Positions 32,152-43,063 are shown, counted from the stretch's first letter. The stretch: DNA of 64,000 bases from Actinomycetota bacterium (GCA_030447305.1 JAUJPC010000001.1:595739-659738), one strand, 5' to 3'. The notes: generated from the sequence alone by a model not told the origin. Translations and numbers: made by a program.

Positions 32152-33582
32152 GTGAAATCGACCCTGGAACGGGAGATCAAGCTTCAGGCGCCTGCGGGAT
32201 TCGTTCTTCCGCAGTTCCCCGGCACTGCGATAGGACCCCGCAGGTTCACGTCCACCTACGTGGACACGGAAGATTTTCGGCTGGCCGGAGCAGGCATAAC
32301 ACTTCGCCGGCGAGTCGAAAACCGCCGCGGAGTCTGGCAGCTGAAGATTCCCAGGGATCACGCTCGCCTGGAGCTCGAGGAGCGGGGGGGCCCGCTCCGA
32401 CCGCCGGCCTCATTCCTGAGGTTGCTGGTGGCTCCGCTGAGAGGAAGCTCAGTTAGTCCGGTCGCCAAGCTGCGGACCTTGCGTACCGGCACGACATTCA
32501 TGGACGGAAACCGCAGGGTGGCCGAGGTCGTCTTCGACTCGGTGCAGGTCCTGAAAGGGTTGACCGTGGTGAACCGATTCAGCGAGATCGAGGTCGAGCT
32601 GCTGGAAGGTGACGAAAACGACCTGAATCAGCTCGGTTCGGCCCTGAAAGCTCTCGGTGCCCATCCGGGTGACGAGCGGCCGAAGTTGTTCCAGGCCCTC
32701 AAGATCGAGGTCGCGCACCCGGAGCCCGAGCACCGGGCGGACAACGAGCTGGCGCAGATCCAGGGCATGATCTCAGACCAGTTCCGACTGCTGATCCGGC
32801 ACGACCCGGGCACCCGCCTGGGCGACGATCCTGAAGATTTACACCAGCATCGCGTGGCCATTCGGAAGCTCAGAAGCCTCCTGGCGTCGGCTCGCATGCT
32901 GGAACCGGAGTGGTCGGCCTCCCTCCGCTCGGAGCTGGAGTGGATCGGGGACCTCATGAATCCGGTTAGGGATATGGACGTAATGATTCCGTATATGCGC
33001 GCCGATATGCAGCTGCTGGAACCGAAGGACGCTGCGCTCGTGGAGCTGTTCATCGACAAGCTGAGAGCTGACCGAGAAGTTGCCCGGCTGAAGATGCTCA
33101 AAGGCCTGGAGAGCGAGCGCTACCTGTCACTGTTGAACACTTTGGAGTCGGCAACCGTGTCGCTGGTCGTCAGAGCGGTCGACGACAGCCTGCAAGACGG
33201 GGCCGCCCGGCAATTCCGCAAGCTGAAGAAAGCGGTTAAGGCTCTTCCGGAACCTGCGGAGGACGAAGACCTGCACCGGGTTCGCCGGCTGGCCAAAAAG
33301 GCTCGCTACACCGCCGACCTGGTCAAGCCGACTGGAGGCGAGAAGGTGGCGAAGTACCTCAACCACATCAAACGGGTTCAAGAGGTGCTCGGCGATTTCC
33401 AGGATGCCGTTGTCGCGGAAGCCAGCATCAAACAGTTCCTAACCGAAGCGCAAAGCAATCGCCAGGCATTCGCCCTGGGCCGGCTGGCCGAGCTGCAGGC
33501 CGGGAAGAAGCGCCGGGTGCGAGCCGAGTTCCCGCCGGCCTGGCGCAAGGTCGCGAAGAGTGGACGCAAGGCGTGGCGCTAA
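32152..33582 (+). CDS. CYTH and CHAD domain protein
   Basis: The 476-residue protein has an N-terminal CYTH domain with the E-R-E-I-K metal/phosphate motif, and from about residue 200 a helical CHAD domain with conserved histidines and basic residues (L-H-Q-H-R-V-A-I-R-K-L-R and L-H-R-V-R-R-L-A-K-K-A-R). CYTH domains hydrolyse inorganic triphosphate and CHAD domains bind polyphosphate. It lies in the polyphosphate neighbourhood between a PhoB-type regulator and mutT1/ppk1, overlapping the next gene by 10 bases. Confidence 0.94.
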   Translation: MKSTLEREIKLQAPAGFVLPQFPGTAIGPRRFTSTYVDTEDFRLAGAGITLRRRVENRRGVWQLKIPRDHARLELEERGGPLRPPASFLRLLVAPLRGSSVSPVAKLRTLRTGTTFMDGNRRVAEVVFDSVQVLKGLTVVNRFSEIEVELLEGDENDLNQLGSALKALGAHPGDERPKLFQALKIEVAHPEPEHRADNELAQIQGMISDQFRLLIRHDPGTRLGDDPEDLHQHRVAIRKLRSLLASARMLEPEWSASLRSELEWIGDLMNPVRDMDVMIPYMRADMQLLEPKDAALVELFIDKLRADREVARLKMLKGLESERYLSLLNTLESATVSLVVRAVDDSLQDGAARQFRKLKKAVKALPEPAEDEDLHRVRRLAKKARYTADLVKPTGGEKVAKYLNHIKRVQEVLGDFQDAVVAEASIKQFLTEAQSNRQAFALGRLAELQAGKKRRVRAEFPPAWRKVAKSGRKAWR

Positions 33583-34445
33583 GACGGTTGCTGCGTGGCA
33601 ATCCGACCGTCCGAGCGGCGGGAGGGGTCATCTCCCGGAAGATGCCGGGCGGCGCAACCCAGGTCCTGGTGGTGCACCGGCCCCGCTACGACGACTGGAG
33701 CTTCCCCAAAGGCAAGCTGCACGCCGGTGAAACCGAAGAGCAGTGCGCCATCCGAGAGGTCGAGGAGGAAACCGGGCTGCTGTGCGAGCCCATCCGTGAG
33801 CTGAGCGGAACGTCGTACAGGGACCGCCGTGGACGCCCGAAGACGGTCAGGTACTGGAACATGAGGGCCGTTTCAGGCAAGTTCAAGGCCAATTCAGAGG
33901 TGGACCAGGCTCGTTGGGTGGATCTGGCCGAGGCTGCTCGGCTACTGAGCTACGAGCACGACCTTTCGATGCTGGAGGAGCTGATGGAGCAGGAGGTGGC
34001 TGAGGCCGCTGCGTTGCTGGTGCGCCACGGCACAGCCGGCAATCGTAAAGACTGGGATGCCAAGGACGAGCTGCGGCCTCTGGACGACAAAGGTCTGCGA
34101 CAGGCCCAGGCGCTGGCCGATACTCTCATCCACCATCCGATCAGGCATATTTTCTCGAGCCCTTACCTGCGATGCGTGCAAACCGTTGAGCCCCTTGCCC
34201 AGCGGCTGGGACTGCCGGTGCAGGAAGCCGGGGAGCTGGCCGAGGGAGCCTCGGCAGCCGAAGTCGCAAAGCTGATAGGCGGGCTTGACGGCGGGTTGGC
34301 GGTGCTCTGCACGCACGGCGACGTCATAGAGAAGATCGTGGGAGAGGACGCGCCCAACCGCAAAGGAGGATTCTGGCTGCTCAATACGACGGCCGACGGC
34401 TTGAAGCCGTCGCGGTACGTGCCTCCACCGGAGCTGGGGACCTGA
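33573..34445 (+). CDS. Nudix hydrolase fused to histidine phosphatase (MutT1-like)
   Basis: The first 140 residues hold a perfect Nudix box (G-K-L-H-A-G-E-T-E then R-E-V-E-E-E-T-G), and the second half is a phosphoglycerate-mutase-type phosphatase with R-H-G-T-A. Mycobacterial MutT1 has this fusion and degrades 8-oxo-dGTP and diadenosine polyphosphates. Coupling to the CYTH-CHAD gene and a one-base gap from the convergent ppk1 stop suggest a role in polyphosphate or phosphorylated nucleotide turnover, which is inference. Confidence 0.92.
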   Translation: MALRRLLRGNPTVRAAGGVISRKMPGGATQVLVVHRPRYDDWSFPKGKLHAGETEEQCAIREVEEETGLLCEPIRELSGTSYRDRRGRPKTVRYWNMRAVSGKFKANSEVDQARWVDLAEAARLLSYEHDLSMLEELMEQEVAEAAALLVRHGTAGNRKDWDAKDELRPLDDKGLRQAQALADTLIHHPIRHIFSSPYLRCVQTVEPLAQRLGLPVQEAGELAEGASAAEVAKLIGGLDGGLAVLCTHGDVIEKIVGEDAPNRKGGFWLLNTTADGLKPSRYVPPPELGT

Positions 34446-34446
34446 C

Positions 34447-36582
34447 CTAACCTTTGTTCTTTGCCTTCACCTTGCGCTTCGGGGCGTTTCTCGCCTGAGC
34501 AGCCAGCATCAGGGCTTCCTGACTCCCGGTTCCCAGGGAGCCGGGCTTGCCCTGGGTATTGCGGGTCCAGTGGCCGTCCGGTTGCAGATCCCAGGCAAAG
34601 ACGTCGTCGGCCCACCCGGCTTCGAATGCGGCAGAGAGCTCTTTTCTAATAGCCTCGGCCTCCACGGGAACCACAACCTCCACCCGCTCATTCAGGTTGC
34701 GCGGCATCAGGTCCGCGCTTCCCATCAGATACCTGGTGGTGTCGCCCGCCTGGAAGATGTACACCCGGCTGTGCTCGAGGAACCGTCCCAGGACGCTGCG
34801 GACCATGATGTTGCGGCTTATTCCGGGAATGCCGGGGCGGAGCGAGCAGATTCCTCGGCACAAAATCCGGATGTCGGCGCCGGCGTTGGAGGCTCTGTAG
34901 AGCTCCTCGATGAGATCCGGATCGGTCAGCGCATTCAGCTTGAGGCGCATGATGGCGGGTTTGCCGGTCTCTGCCGCCTTGGCGACGTGGCGAATCTCCT
35001 CCATGAGACCCGAGCGAAGACCAAACGGAGCAACGAGAATCTTTCGGAAATGGACCGGCTTGCTGAACCCTGTCAGGTAGTTGAACAGCTCCGCGACATC
35101 GGCGGCGATATCCGGGTCGCTGGTGAAGAGGCCGAAGTCCTCGTAGATCCGGGCGGTCGCCGAGTGGTAGTTGCCAGTGCCGATATGCACGTACCTCCGC
35201 AGAACTCCCTCCTCACGCCTGACCACGAGAATCGTCTTGGCGTGGATCTTGAGGTTGGGAAACCCGTGGACAACGTGCACCCCTGCACGCTCCAGGCGCT
35301 TCGACCACTCGATGTTGTGGCCCTCGTCGAACCGGGCCTTCAGCTCGACCAGGGCGACGCTCTGCTTGCCGGATTCCGCCGCCTCGATCAGTGCCGGTAC
35401 CACCGGCGACTTCTCGGAAGTGCGGTACACCGTGGTCTTCAGAGCAATGACCGCGGGATCCCGGGCGGCGCCTCTGACGAAGTCCTCGACGCTGGTGGTG
35501 AACGAGTCGTACGGGAGATGAACCAGAAGATCTCTCCTGCGAATCTGGGCGAAGAAGTCGGAGGTGGTGGCCGCCTGAAGCTGGGGACGGGTGACGGGTG
35601 CCCACGGTTCAAACTTGAGATCGGGACGGTCCAGATCCGCGAGCTGCGATACGTCGGCGAAATCGAGGAATCCGTCAATCGGGTAGACCTGATCCGAGCC
35701 GACGCCCATCGCTTCCCGAAGAAGGTCAAGCATTCTCGGGGAGGCGGTTTCTGAGACCTCGAGGCGTACGACATCGCCGAAGCGGCGCCTCCGCAGCTCC
35801 AGCTCTACGGCTTCCATCAGGTCGGCGGCCTCATCGTCGACCTCGAAGTCGGCATCCCGCGTGACCCGGAACATCGTCCTCTCTACGATCTCCACTCCTG
35901 GAAAAAGATAGTGCAGGAAGTGGCCGATGACGTCCTCCGACGGGATCATCAGGTTACGGTTTCCGACGGTCACGAACCGAGGGAGGCCCTCGGGAACCTT
36001 GACCCGGGCAAACCGCTCCTCGCCATTGGCCGGGTCTCGAACGAACAGGCCGAGGCTGAGCGAAAGCCCCGATATGTAGGGAAACGGCTGACCGGGACCC
36101 ACGGCGAGTGGAGTGAGAACGGGGTACAGGTCCTCTTTGAACGCCGTCTCCAGCTCCTCCAGCTCGTCGGGGGAGCAGTCGGTCACGTCACCTATGAGTA
36201 CCCCAGCCTTCGCGAGCTGGGGCTGAAGCTCGGTTCTCCAAAGCTGGGCCTGCCCTTTGAACATGAGCAGTGCCCGGTTACGGATCTCGGCAAGCGTTTC
36301 CGCGGCGGTCATCCCATCGGTCGAGGGCAAGGAGGCGGCCGACATTGCCCGCCCCATCAACCCAGCGACTCGCACCATGAAGAACTCATCGAGATTCGCC
36401 GAAAAGATGGAGCAGAAGCGAACTCGCTCCAGTAGCGGAACGCTCTCGTCGGCTGCGATGGCCAGCACCCGGTCGTTGAAGTCAAGCCAGGACAGCTCGC
36501 GGTTGATCAGGCGGTGGTTGGGCGGATCGTCCGCCTGGGAGATCGCAGCCTGGCTCAGGGTATCGCTGGTCGCTTCATGCAT
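34447..36582 (-). CDS. ppk1: Polyphosphate kinase Ppk1
   Basis: The 711-residue enzyme polymerises the terminal phosphate of ATP into polyphosphate. The four expected domains are present: N-terminal (N-R-E-L-S-W-L-D-F-N), head, and two catalytic domains, with the autophosphorylated histidine at H466 in Y-V-H-I-G-T-G-N-Y. The C-terminal tail is lysine-rich. The gene is divergent from a PhoB-type regulator and convergent with the MutT1-like gene, so polyphosphate synthesis and breakdown genes sit together. Confidence 0.97.
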   Translation of the reverse strand: MHEATSDTLSQAAISQADDPPNHRLINRELSWLDFNDRVLAIAADESVPLLERVRFCSIFSANLDEFFMVRVAGLMGRAMSAASLPSTDGMTAAETLAEIRNRALLMFKGQAQLWRTELQPQLAKAGVLIGDVTDCSPDELEELETAFKEDLYPVLTPLAVGPGQPFPYISGLSLSLGLFVRDPANGEERFARVKVPEGLPRFVTVGNRNLMIPSEDVIGHFLHYLFPGVEIVERTMFRVTRDADFEVDDEAADLMEAVELELRRRRFGDVVRLEVSETASPRMLDLLREAMGVGSDQVYPIDGFLDFADVSQLADLDRPDLKFEPWAPVTRPQLQAATTSDFFAQIRRRDLLVHLPYDSFTTSVEDFVRGAARDPAVIALKTTVYRTSEKSPVVPALIEAAESGKQSVALVELKARFDEGHNIEWSKRLERAGVHVVHGFPNLKIHAKTILVVRREEGVLRRYVHIGTGNYHSATARIYEDFGLFTSDPDIAADVAELFNYLTGFSKPVHFRKILVAPFGLRSGLMEEIRHVAKAAETGKPAIMRLKLNALTDPDLIEELYRASNAGADIRILCRGICSLRPGIPGISRNIMVRSVLGRFLEHSRVYIFQAGDTTRYLMGSADLMPRNLNERVEVVVPVEAEAIRKELSAAFEAGWADDVFAWDLQPDGHWTRNTQGKPGSLGTGSQEALMLAAQARNAPKRKVKAKNKG

Positions 36583-37436: not shown

Positions 37437-37715
37437 ATGGTCAAAAGAGCGATCTCCGGAAAAGGCCGGCGCGGCGCACCACCACTTCCACGGCAAAGAG
37501 GGGCGTTGAGGGTGGTGCAGCTGAGTCTTCTGGGGCTGGCGCTGTTCCTCAGCAACATGGCCTACCGGTCCTGGTTGGCTTACTCGTCGGCCGAGCCGAA
37601 CACCCGCTTGGACGAGGTGGTCGTCGTGGGGGCGGTGGCATTGGTCTGCGCCGCCGGCTGCCTGTGGATGGGCGTGCGCACGGTTCGAGGCCCCCAGCCG
37701 CCAAGCCTCGACTAG
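37437..37715 (+). CDS. Small membrane protein of unknown function
   Basis: The 92-residue protein has a basic proline-rich N-terminus and two hydrophobic helices (about residues 26-44 and 60-80). ATG follows GGGGGAT. It lies 42 bases after the response regulator and may share its transcript. No family is recognised. Confidence 0.65.
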   Translation: MVKRAISGKGRRGAPPLPRQRGALRVVQLSLLGLALFLSNMAYRSWLAYSSAEPNTRLDEVVVVGAVALVCAAGCLWMGVRTVRGPQPPSLD

Positions 37716-38743: not shown

Positions 38744-40117
38744 TCAGGCCTGAATGATGGCAACCGTTCCCGCCGCTCGGGTGGCGTCGACCTCCACGAT
38801 CATGCCGTCCCGCAGCACGCTGGTGGCCGTCTCGCTCCCCAGAATGCACGGGACCCGGTTCTCCCGGCAGATGATAGCTGCGTGGCTGAGAAGCCCGCCT
38901 TCATCGGTGACGATGGCTGCGGCCTTCTCAATTGCCACGGCCGGCACGGTTCGGTAAGGGAAAACTGAAGGCTGCCCCTCGTAGTTGGGGGTGCTGAGGT
39001 TGGTGACCAGGATGTCCCCGACCTCCAGCTTGCCTCCCTCGTCGGCATCGAGGATCACCTTCACCCGTCCCGCCGCTCTGCCGAGGGAGACCGACTGTCC
39101 GGTTAGGTCCTCCGGCAATGCAGTGGATGCATCGTTGGAGCGAGCGGATACCTGCCCGCCGGAACCCAGAAGGCTGAAGCCGTTGGTGGCTCGCAGATCC
39201 AGCTCGCCGACTTCCAGCCGAGCTGTTCCGTTCAGGGCCGAGCGGATCTCCGCCGGCGTCGCGTAGGCAAGCTGCCGGTTTGAGCATCCGGCGGCTTTGG
39301 CGACCTTCTCCCAGAACGACCTCGATATCCAACGGGCCTTCACCAAAAGAACTGGCCTGAACGATAAGCCGCCGGCCACGGTGCGACAGGCCTCGATCAG
39401 CCCGGGGACTTTCTCCGGGACGTCCTTCGCCGCCTGGGTCTTCTTCGAAGGTGAAGCCAGGCCCGCTGCAACGGCAAGGGTGCCGGCATCCCACCGCAAC
39501 AGGGCTACCTGAATTCGCTGCATCAGCTCTTTTGGAGATAGCGGGTCCAGGTTGGTTCGCGCGCTTCGGACCCAGCCGTACTCCGCGAGATGGTGGTCGA
39601 TCAACGCAGAGATCGCCGGAAATTCCGCCTGCAGCCCTCGGGCCGCCCGGTTCGATGAAAGGTCGAGCACCAGATCCCTCCCCGCCGGATCTTTCCCGAT
39701 GGCCAGCGCGATCCGGTAAAGGCTTTTGATCTCCGAGGATTCGGGGGATTCGGGATACCCGATGTGCGCCCGGAGCGACTCCGGGTCGTCCGGCAACCGT
39801 AGTTCCCGGGCCAATGCGTGGCAGAGCTCCTGCAGCACGTCCGGCGCGGAGGCAACAAAGTTGGCAGCGCTGATGGCTTTCTCGAGGTACCTCTCAAGTC
39901 CGGCCGTCAACGTTTCGCCGGAACCGTCCGCGGTCAGCGCGATTTCTTTGACGCAGTCCATTAACGCTTCGGCGGCGTCTGTTGCTTCGTCGATAAACGT
40001 GGAAAACGCCGGACTGTCAGCATTCTTTGAGCCCGGCGGGGTCCGGCCGGCGGCGGCAATCAGCGCGGCGTCGAATGCCCGACGAATACCAGGTAGAGAG
40101 CCGGAGTTGTCGGTCAC
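38744..40117 (-). CDS. Phosphohistidine swivel-domain protein (split dikinase, second subunit)
   Basis: The last 110 residues of this 457-residue protein form the PEP-utilising mobile domain with T-D-E-G-G-L-L-S-H-A-A-I, phospho-accepting His at about 412. The first ~340 residues are helical with no recognised family and probably contain the acceptor-substrate site. The C-terminal PEP/pyruvate TIM barrel of true PEP synthase or PPDK is missing. The start overlaps the ATP-grasp gene upstream as GTGA, so the two are subunits of one split enzyme. The layout (ATP-grasp, substrate part, His domain) is that of rifampin phosphotransferase, but the substrate part is about 100 residues shorter. Confidence 0.85.
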   Translation of the reverse strand: MTDNSGSLPGIRRAFDAALIAAAGRTPPGSKNADSPAFSTFIDEATDAAEALMDCVKEIALTADGSGETLTAGLERYLEKAISAANFVASAPDVLQELCHALARELRLPDDPESLRAHIGYPESPESSEIKSLYRIALAIGKDPAGRDLVLDLSSNRAARGLQAEFPAISALIDHHLAEYGWVRSARTNLDPLSPKELMQRIQVALLRWDAGTLAVAAGLASPSKKTQAAKDVPEKVPGLIEACRTVAGGLSFRPVLLVKARWISRSFWEKVAKAAGCSNRQLAYATPAEIRSALNGTARLEVGELDLRATNGFSLLGSGGQVSARSNDASTALPEDLTGQSVSLGRAAGRVKVILDADEGGKLEVGDILVTNLSTPNYEGQPSVFPYRTVPAVAIEKAAAIVTDEGGLLSHAAIICRENRVPCILGSETATSVLRDGMIVEVDATRAAGTVAIIQA

Positions 40118-41061
40118 TCAGGCCTGGCCGTCTGGGGGCGGGCCTGGAGAATCCAGAGCCCCCTGCCGTCGATCGCCCACTCGATGTCCTGCGGTTGTCC
40201 CATGAGCTCCTCAATGTCCAGGCATACTGAAACTATTCCTTCCGCCTCCGAATCGGATAGCACTGCCAGTTTGCGCCGAGCCGGGTCCGTTTCGAGAGTT
40301 TGGCTTCCCTCGCCCGTTTTCGAGACTACGGTCATCCGCCGTTTCGACCCGATCCTAGACTCCACGATCTTGCCGGTTGTTCTGGAAACCGTGATGGAAT
40401 CGGGAGTAACCGTGCCGCCTACGACCGACTCTCCCGTGCCGTAGTTGGCCTCCAGGTAAGCCGAGTCACCTTCCGGCTCCAGCGGATGGCGGGTGAAGAG
40501 CACCCCGGCCTTCTCGGCGAAGATCTGGGACTGGATGAGCACCCCAAACCCGGCACGGGGACGCAGCTCAATGTCTCGTGCCCGGCGGTAGGCGAGTACA
40601 TCCTCGGAGAGGCACGACGACCAAACCGTTCTCAGCGCGCCCAGCAGCTTGGCACCACCCGACACGCCCAACATCGAGCTGTACTGCCCGGCGAACGACG
40701 CTCCGATAGAGTCCTCATCCGCACCGGAGGAACGAACCGCCACCACATCGTTCTCAGCTTCCGCGGTCAGGCTCGCATAGCCCTCGAGGATTAAGCCGGC
40801 GACCTCTTCCGGGATGGGCGCCTGGGCAATTTGCCGGCGCAGACCGGCAAGGGTTTCCGGATGGGGGCGGTCGTCCACGGCGGGCCAGGTGATTCTGTTG
40901 TGCTCAAGATGCCTCTGCAATGCGTCCGACGGAACGACAAAAAATGCCGGTACGGGAACGCGACGGGCTGACAGGCGAGCAAGGGATGCGGCCTTGCCGC
41001 CGACCTGTTCCAGAGGCGCATGCAGTGCCTCGGCCATCGTCAAGAGCGGGATGCTAGCCAA
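40114..41061 (-). CDS. PEP synthase/PPDK-type ATP-grasp domain protein (split dikinase, first subunit)
   Basis: The 315-residue protein corresponds to the ATP-binding domain alone: V-G-G-K-A-A-S-L near the N-terminus, V-R-S-S-G-A-D-E-D and F-A-G-Q-Y in the middle, and W-I-L-Q-A-R-P-Q-T at the end, exactly where fused dikinases continue into the swivel domain. TTG at 41061 overlaps the cofC stop; an ATG at 41037 is an alternative. It should transfer the beta-phosphate of ATP to the histidine of the partner encoded next. Coupling to cofC suggests a role in F420 synthesis, which is my inference. Confidence 0.87.
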   Translation of the reverse strand: MASIPLLTMAEALHAPLEQVGGKAASLARLSARRVPVPAFFVVPSDALQRHLEHNRITWPAVDDRPHPETLAGLRRQIAQAPIPEEVAGLILEGYASLTAEAENDVVAVRSSGADEDSIGASFAGQYSSMLGVSGGAKLLGALRTVWSSCLSEDVLAYRRARDIELRPRAGFGVLIQSQIFAEKAGVLFTRHPLEPEGDSAYLEANYGTGESVVGGTVTPDSITVSRTTGKIVESRIGSKRRMTVVSKTGEGSQTLETDPARRKLAVLSDSEAEGIVSVCLDIEELMGQPQDIEWAIDGRGLWILQARPQTARPE

Positions 41062-41665
41062 GCAGCTCGCGCGCCAGGCGCACGCTCTCCCGAAGGTTGG
41101 CCAGCCCGCCGAGAGTTACCAGGTCGCGGTACCGGTCGATGTCCAAAACCAGCGAGCTCATCTCCACCAGACGGCACGTCAGCCCCGCTTCCAAAGCCCC
41201 CCTCCGGTGCGACTCCGCGCTGAATGGCCCAAAGCACGGTTCCACCGCCTGCGGCGGCCGGCGCAACAGCGCATTGGTGCCTCCGTCGCGGGAGGGCGCC
41301 ACCACCACGTTCTCGGGACTCCCAAAGAGTGCGGTGATGTCGTCGGAAGTCACCATCGGAACGTCGGAGGGCAGGACCAGCAGCGTGGAGGAACCGGCCG
41401 AGACTGCAGCATCGGTTCCGGCGACGACCGCGACGTTAAGCCCCAGGCCGGGGTCGGCGACGAGTGAACACCCGAAGGCCAATCCCACCGCCTCGGCATC
41501 CTGATCGCTGGTGACGATTAGCCGATGCGTCCACTTTTCGGTCGCCCGCAACACGTCGGCGAGCATCGCCAGACCCAGGCGGCGCCGGTCCGGCGGGGCC
41601 AGTCGCTGAGAGAGTCGCAGCTTCGCCTGGTCCAGGCGCTTCACCGGGATGAGGATGGATTCCAA
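41054..41665 (-). CDS. cofC: CofC/FbiD-type phospholactate or PEP guanylyltransferase
   Basis: From a TTG at 41665 with GGAAGG upstream, the 203-residue protein matches CofC: I-P-V-K-R-L-D-Q-A-K-x-R-L-S at the N-terminus, L-V-L-P-S-D-V-P in the middle and D-G-G-T-N-A-L in the nucleotide site. The enzyme activates 2-phospho-L-lactate, or PEP in mycobacteria, with GTP in the first step of F420 side-chain assembly. A longer open frame upstream runs antisense through frhB and is spurious. It heads an operon with the two dikinase subunits. Confidence 0.92.
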   Translation of the reverse strand: MESILIPVKRLDQAKLRLSQRLAPPDRRRLGLAMLADVLRATEKWTHRLIVTSDQDAEAVGLAFGCSLVADPGLGLNVAVVAGTDAAVSAGSSTLLVLPSDVPMVTSDDITALFGSPENVVVAPSRDGGTNALLRRPPQAVEPCFGPFSAESHRRGALEAGLTCRLVEMSSLVLDIDRYRDLVTLGGLANLRESVRLARELLG

Positions 41666-41764: not shown

Positions 41765-43063
41765 ATGGCGGACGTAAACGGGAGCTCGCCGGCGGCTCCG
41801 GGCGAGAAGCGCAAGCACTGGAACGCCGGTCCCGAGCGCAAGCACTGGAAGCATCTCTACCAGGAGATCGTCGCTACCGAGGTCTGCGTGGGTTGCTCGG
41901 CGTGCGTGGTCTCCTGTCCCCACGACGTCATTGAGATGTTGCCGACGCTGCGGCCCGACCAAAAGGACAAAGAGCGGCCGCGTGACTTCTGCGAGCACGG
42001 CGAAGCCAGCTGCTCGCTGTGCGCCATGGCTTGCCTGCGGCTTGAGCCGGCCATCGACAAGATCGAGGACATGATGTTCGGCCGCCGGCGCAAGCACCCC
42101 AGCGAGATCTACGGCCAGCAGCGCGAGATGTGGCTTGGCCGCACCACCAGCGAGGAGATTCGCAAGGTCGGCCAGGATGGCGGGGTGGTCAGCTCGATAA
42201 TCGGTTGGATGCTCGACAACGGCGAGCTCGACGGCGCCTGCGTCGCGATGCCCGACCCCGAGAAGCCCTGGTACGACAAGCCCGCCGTCGTGCGCAACCG
42301 TGAGGACATGCTGAAATCGTCCGGTTCTCGTTACACGTACTGCAACACGCCGCTGGCCTTGAAGGAGGCCGCCGAGATGAAGCTCAAGAAGGTGGGCGTG
42401 GTCGGCGTGTCGTGCGAATCGACTGCCATGCGCGAGATGGCGGCCGAGGGCATCAAGCGCTGGAGCCGGATGACCAAGTTCGTGGCCGGCCTGATGTGCA
42501 ACGAGACCTTCAAGTACGAGGAGTTCATCTTCGACATCGTTCGTGACCGGTACAAAGTGGACGTCGACAAGATCGTGAAGATTAACGTCAAGGGCGACGT
42601 CTACGTCACCTTGACCGACGGTACCGACGTGAGGATTCCGCTGGACGAGTGCAAGGTCGTCTCGAACGACTGGTGTCACCACTGCCCGGACTTCGCGGCC
42701 GAGCATGCCGACATCTCCTTTGGTGGCATCGGCCTGTCCGGCTGGACGATGTGCATCATCCGCAGCGAGTACGGCCAGGACGTGTGGAGCCGGGCGGTCG
42801 AGGCCGGAATCATCGAGACCAAGCCGACCTCCGAGGACCCGGACGGCATGCGGGTTCTGGAGGTGCTCGCAAAGAAGCAGCGCCGCCGCACCGGTCCGCT
42901 GGAGTCCCACGCCGCAGCCCGGTGGCCAGTCAAGCGGGTGCTGGACAAGGCCAAGAAGGAGTTCGTGGAGGAGCAGCTCGCCTCAATCGAAGCCGAGTCC
43001 GGCAACGGCAAAGCCGAGGCCGCAGAGCCGACCCCCGGCATCGAGGCCTCACCTCCCCGCTGA
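41765..43063 (+). CDS. FrhB-family coenzyme F420 hydrogenase/dehydrogenase beta-subunit-like protein
   Basis: The 432-residue flavoprotein has a 4Fe-4S motif at Cys 41, 44, 47 and 51 (C-V-G-C-S-A-C-V-V-S-C-P), a second cysteine set at 76, 83, 86 and 90, and FrhB N- and C-terminal domains with G-V-V-S-S-I-I-G-W-M-L. FrhB-type proteins move electrons between F420, flavin and iron-sulphur partners. No hydrogenase or other partner subunit is encoded nearby. The N-terminus has a short doubled K-H-W-N / K-H-W-K segment. It is divergent from the cofC operon across 99 bases. Confidence 0.9.
   Translation: MADVNGSSPAAPGEKRKHWNAGPERKHWKHLYQEIVATEVCVGCSACVVSCPHDVIEMLPTLRPDQKDKERPRDFCEHGEASCSLCAMACLRLEPAIDKIEDMMFGRRRKHPSEIYGQQREMWLGRTTSEEIRKVGQDGGVVSSIIGWMLDNGELDGACVAMPDPEKPWYDKPAVVRNREDMLKSSGSRYTYCNTPLALKEAAEMKLKKVGVVGVSCESTAMREMAAEGIKRWSRMTKFVAGLMCNETFKYEEFIFDIVRDRYKVDVDKIVKINVKGDVYVTLTDGTDVRIPLDECKVVSNDWCHHCPDFAAEHADISFGGIGLSGWTMCIIRSEYGQDVWSRAVEAGIIETKPTSEDPDGMRVLEVLAKKQRRRTGPLESHAAARWPVKRVLDKAKKEFVEEQLASIEAESGNGKAEAAEPTPGIEASPPR

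Follow-up and report, generated by a model that had tools for sequence, protein, structure and literature searches.

A cofC-linked gene pair of an Actinomycetota genus that resembles two-component small-molecule dikinases

Introduction

Rifampin phosphotransferase (RPH) is a single polypeptide of three domains, in which an ATP-grasp domain is followed by a helical substrate domain and a C-terminal His swivel (PMC4844700). The two-component dikinases, of which HpeHI of Rhodococcus, CreHI and the phenylphosphate synthase PpsAB have been described (PMC12167813), carry the ATP-grasp domain on one subunit and the substrate domain with its His swivel on another, and have no PEP barrel. An earlier note on the DNA analysed here had proposed a possible new F420-precursor phosphotransferase, whose architecture has precedents in these enzymes. 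The gene pair in question shares its domain order with RPH, though on two polypeptides rather than one, and its division into subunits with HpeHI, CreHI and PpsAB. With PEP synthase and PPDK it has the ATP-grasp and swivel domains in common, but it lacks their PEP/pyruvate TIM barrel. The pair adjoins cofC, the gene for a 2-phospholactate (2-PL)/PEP guanylyltransferase.

When PEP is the substrate of CofC, no dedicated kinase is required. PEP has been reported as the F420 precursor, and a candidate lactate kinase was not found in F420 operons (PMC6450877). The 2-PL kinase is nevertheless still listed as unknown in a review (PMC8498797).

Organization of the locus

The window, that is, the whole stretch of 64,000 nucleotides that was analysed, contains the following features.

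41765-43063, plus strand: FrhB/FpoF-like F420-reducing protein with a ferredoxin motif, divergent neighbour of cofC (PF04432, PF04422)
41054-41665, minus strand: cofC, 2-phospholactate/PEP guanylyltransferase (TIGR03552)
40114-41061, minus strand: ATP-grasp subunit of the dikinase, 315 aa, TTG start (PF01326 PPDK_N)
38744-40117, minus strand: acceptor subunit, 457 aa, GTG start, with helical substrate domain and phosphohistidine swivel (PF00391)
38944-38985, minus strand: about 13 additional residues inserted into the swivel of the acceptor subunit (alignments and pLDDT)

Reading of the sequence confirmed both junctions of the three minus-strand genes, which had been described as overlapping by 8 and 4 bases. 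The 8-nt overlap of cofC with the ATP-grasp gene (TTGGCTAG) depends on the TTG start; were translation to begin at an in-frame ATG nine codons further on, the two genes would be 16 nt apart. The stop of the ATP-grasp gene and the start of the helical gene overlap by 4 nt (GTGA). An ATGA or GTGA overlap of these two genes is kept in the window, in G004 of the same genus and in G002 of a sister genus, and the pair is therefore a real unit. Elsewhere in the window, at 32152-36582, lies a polyphosphate-type cluster consisting of a CYTH-CHAD protein, a Nudix and phosphohistidine-phosphatase-like protein (assigned by eye) and a polyphosphate kinase.

The identity of the three genes agrees with what had been claimed for them. 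CofC scores 147 bits with TIGR03552 against a cut-off of 105 (NCBIfam). The ATP-grasp protein consists of the ATP domain only, matching PF01326 over profile positions 2-312 of 328 (E 1.3e-70), and Pfam and NCBIfam profile searches found no PEP/pyruvate TIM barrel in either dikinase protein. Both miss the NCBIfam equivalog cut-offs for PEP synthase and PPDK by far.

The two dikinase subunits

The best match of the ATP-grasp subunit among the sequences of solved structures is 9GOJ, the HpeI subunit of HpeHI (E 2.7e-35). Lys22, Arg117 and Glu297 of RPH correspond to K23, R110 and E294, so that the ATP-site Lys and Arg are kept, and Thr136 is conservatively replaced by S129. Like its two-component counterparts, this ATP-grasp domain occupies a polypeptide of its own beside one that combines substrate domain and swivel.

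The acceptor subunit comprises the helical substrate domain (approximately residues 1-335) and the swivel (approximately residues 336-457), with residues 395-447 giving the only Pfam match (PF00391, E 5.7e-16). The C-terminal swivel contains the catalytic-His motif TDEGGLLSH with His412, which conforms to the pattern T/S-x-x-G-G-x-x-x-H and upholds the phosphohistidine swivel (T-x-G-G-x-x-S-H) of the earlier note. An AlphaFold2 model of the subunit has a mean pLDDT of 83.7, and Foldseek with the whole model ranks RPH first, the top six PDB matches all being RPH (E 1.3e-11 to 1.4e-9). This predicted structure is in keeping with the RPH-like layout, substrate domain in the middle, that had been suggested. 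For the helical domain alone (model pLDDT 81.4) the top four Foldseek matches are again RPH, although weak (TM 0.45-0.55, E 0.003-0.05). The Arg666-Glu667 acceptor-site pair of RPH is not kept: the window has R254 and then Pro, G004 has Ser and G002 has Gly. With the NCBIfam RPH model the two proteins reach 180 and 53 bits, short of its cut-off of 999.

Beside the catalytic loop, the swivel of all members from the window's order contains an insertion at residues ~378-391 (YEGQPSVFPYRTVP), with pLDDT below 50 at residues 380-393 of the AlphaFold2 model. Such an insertion is found neither in the aligned CPR/DPANN and alphaproteobacterial proteins nor in PEPS and RPH of solved structure. It is also one of the differences from HpeHI, along with the size of the acceptor subunit (457 aa here, 71 kDa in HpeH), a middle domain that gives no significant direct profile match with PRK08296-type proteins, and a neighbourhood in which aromatic catabolism genes were not recognised.

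Relatives of the helical domain

The earlier note had left the helical part in no known family. When 84,980 species genomes were scanned with a query alignment of three full-length rows, the matches included an alphaproteobacterial pair (L057) and many proteins of DPANN archaea and CPR bacteria. When the swivel was left out, the helical domain matched the middle domain of the CPR/DPANN proteins (hhalign 97.6%, E 3.9e-12) with a score of 91, against 10 for a reversed profile and at most 19 for twelve shuffles. PRK08296-type two-component proteins match the CPR/DPANN set on one side (hhalign 79%, or 93% with all sets joined) and RPH-type proteins on the other (hhalign 99.7%). Curated RPH models also extend into the CPR/DPANN helical domain; residues 193-469 of L062:1078-2499, for example, align to RPH 601-861. 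Direct hhalign comparison of the window family's middle domain with RPH-type (3%) or PRK08296-type (0.6%) profiles was not significant, and homology is therefore claimed only through the CPR/DPANN family. The chain of profile matches is suggestive of, but does not prove, a relationship between the helical domain and the RPH substrate domain. The part is thus no longer without a family: it shares ancestry with the middle domain of the CPR/DPANN proteins, from which profile matches extend to that of RPH.

The helical domain occurs in 35 of 287 genomes of one CPR phylum (E up to 1e-10). Tandem arrays of overlapping or closely spaced helical-His-swivel genes are present in the CPR/DPANN genomes L062, L058, L085 and L219-L228. 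L222 has about nine such genes and one ATP-grasp gene, L223 and L226 have about eight each, and L062 has five with one ATP-grasp gene; in L058, four helical-His-swivel modules are joined in one frame of 1705 residues. Arrays in which an ATP-grasp gene was recognised had a single one. These proteins share with the window's pair the homologous middle domain, the swivel and a single ATP-grasp partner, but differ in their tandem acceptors, where the window has one, and in coming from genomes without cofC. The arrangement suggests that a single ATP-loading subunit may serve many acceptors. Neighbours of the arrays (HAD and histidine phosphatases, a carbamoyltransferase-like protein and DUF5674) gave no clear clue to a substrate, and a term-based literature search found no paper on the arrays.

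Distribution and linkage to cofC

Among 396 genomes sampled from the phylum, 217 have cofC, and the helical domain was found in four (E below 1e-16), all in one order. The full-length relatives in this sample are those of G000, G002, G004 and G006, while a fifth cofC genome, G005, is represented by its ATP-grasp subunit, at a contig end. This leaves about 212 of the 217 genomes with cofC and without the pair. One of these is G007, a genome from the same order that encodes CofD and a stand-alone CofE besides CofC. No dikinase lies within 1.5 kb of cofC at the 30 best-scoring cofC loci.

Within the window's genus, each of the three species with an assembled locus (G000, G004 and G005) has the ATP-grasp gene adjoining cofC, with an overlap or close to one. 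The helical gene then follows in G000 and G004, and in G004 it is split over two contig ends. Two candidate readings of these assemblies were rejected. G005 does not count as lacking the pair, as its contig stops inside the ATP-grasp gene right after cofC, and the two helical matches of G004 are not paralogues but parts of one gene, the same stretch of protein being encoded at both contig ends. The incomplete genome G003 yielded no clear cofC and no pair.

Outside the genus, the pair or its helical subunit is found apart from cofC. The pair of the sister genus (G002) adjoins thiC, with cofC on another contig and ppk close to it. G006 carries a helical acceptor gene (L037:7689-9131, G006:C50) with no adjacent ATP-grasp partner; a single-domain ATP-grasp gene is absent from this genome, in which the remaining matches come from ordinary PEP synthases and PPDK. 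The alphaproteobacterium G396 has its cofC on a different contig from the pair, with no dikinase within ~8 kb, and all 11 CPR/DPANN genomes with helical-domain relatives lack cofC. At the alphaproteobacterial locus L057:8868-15583, the ATP-grasp/helical-swivel pair is followed by a membrane protein, a class II aldolase/adducin-domain protein and a RelA/SpoT-like protein.

In representatives of three genera (G001, G002 and G007) the homologue of window 37437-37715 is the immediate neighbour of cofC, the pair being absent from this site. The pair-free site therefore looks ancestral, and insertion in the window's genus is the simplest account. The FrhB/FpoF-like gene stands beside cofC also in G001, G004, G005, G006 and G007, whether or not the pair is there. 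Between G000 and G004, CofC is 84% and FrhB 85% identical, against 55% for the ATP-grasp subunit and 41% for the helical domain.

The earlier note suggested that the pair may phosphorylate a C3 acid and so feed CofC, to be judged by their co-occurrence across taxa, and named as contrary evidence a pair found mostly away from cofC and in organisms without F420. The distribution largely takes that contrary form: adjacency is confined to the window's genus, the helical domain reaches four of the 217 cofC genomes, and linkage is missing in G002, G006 and G396 as well as in the 11 CPR/DPANN genomes that have no cofC at all.

Function of the pair

Domain make-up, ATP-site residues, the catalytic His, the RPH-like fold and the conserved 4-nt overlap characterize the pair as a divergent, shortened two-component small-molecule dikinase without a PEP barrel. 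It is probably an RPH/HpeHI-like enzyme that came to lie downstream of cofC in the ancestor of the genus and works outside F420 synthesis. By analogy with RPH, PpsAB and HpeHI, the ATP-grasp subunit would bind ATP, and His412 of the swivel would attack its beta-phosphate. The pyrophosphorylated His so formed would give up the gamma-phosphate, AMP and Pi being released, and the swivel domain would take the phosphate left on the His to a hydroxylated small molecule bound in the helical domain. The insertion most likely placed the pair in co-transcription with cofC. Against this explanation stand the cofC/ATP-grasp junction, kept in three species and so more than chance needs, the tie of the middle domain to RPH by way of the CPR/DPANN family and not by direct comparison, the loss of the RPH Arg666/Glu667 pair and the G006 helical gene with no ATP-grasp gene beside it.

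The junction is also the reason why a second explanation retains a small share of the probability. The pair may be the missing, CofB-like C3-acid kinase that makes 2-PL or another phospho-C3 acid for CofC, which on balance appears improbable. The CofC site is compatible with such a role: K17, L92, D116, G163, S166, D188 and D190 of Mycobacterium tuberculosis FbiD correspond to K9, L76, D101, G146, S149, D175 and D177, Gly146 stands where 3-phosphoglycerate enzymes have Ser, and Leu76 agrees with PEP/2-PL enzymes. Judged by these residues, the active site is of the PEP/2-PL type. Room for 2-PL is further left by CofE, which is a stand-alone protein without the FbiB reductase domain required by the PEP route. 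No clear candidate for a dehydro-F420-0 reductase was identified in the window's order, and the matches of the top-ranking stand-alone nitroreductase in G000 are to BluB and other nitroreductases and include no FbiB structure. G000 and related genomes share this form of CofE whether or not they carry the pair, G007 being an example of one that does not; the form therefore does not single out the pair carriers. The cofD-cofE loci L152, L155, L156, L153 and L154, from the genus or order of the window, all encode a stand-alone CofE. The idea that the lineage needs 2-PL for want of an FbiB reductase was rejected, as stand-alone CofE is also found where the pair is missing.

Several lines of evidence weigh against a C3-acid kinase. 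The great majority of cofC genomes in the phylum do without the pair, which in other taxa lies away from cofC, and the reported precursor is PEP (PMC6450877). The helical clefts of the characterised relatives hold rifampin or phenols, not C3 acids. The substrate domain also diverges far faster than CofC, and a fixed C3-acid site would be expected to be better kept than the 41% identity of the helical domain beside the 84% of CofC. A variant restricted to the window's genus, where a recruited pair would phosphorylate L-lactate, another precursor or an F420 intermediate and hand the product to CofC, likewise has a slender chance of being correct.

It is very unlikely that the pair acts on F420, Fo or a flavin-like molecule, yielding a phosphorylated derivative or controlling the pool. 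The operon with cofC and the divergent F420-reducing protein next door would suit this role, as would the fit of large aromatic molecules into RPH-type clefts (PMC4844700). However, most F420 producers lack the pair, which also occurs away from cofC, and no phosphorylated F420 variant of this kind was found in the literature examined.

Decay or inactivity of the acceptor subunit in the window's order is highly doubtful. Decay would explain why the subunit diverges rapidly, why G002 and G004 have lost the RPH-like Arg and why G006 has an orphan gene, but all members have open reading frames, an invariant His and GGLLSH and a swivel that is 73% identical, and the ATP-site residues and the 4-nt overlap are kept. 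Phosphorylation of a protein or a regulatory role can be largely discounted: VadK of M. tuberculosis, a PPDK derivative that functions as a histidine kinase (PMC13400623), offers a precedent, but VadK is not of the two-component type and the helical domain is most like a rifampin, hence small-molecule, binding domain.

Concluding remarks

Were the link to F420 true, the pair would be a candidate for the 2-PL kinase and the first candidate for the lactate kinase, CofB. As the small-molecule dikinase that it probably is, it adds a divergent and shortened branch to the recently recognised two-component enzymes. By sequence, the window's pair is also tied to a large family of uncharacterised CPR/DPANN proteins whose acceptor genes stand in tandem and in which one ATP-loading subunit may serve many acceptors.
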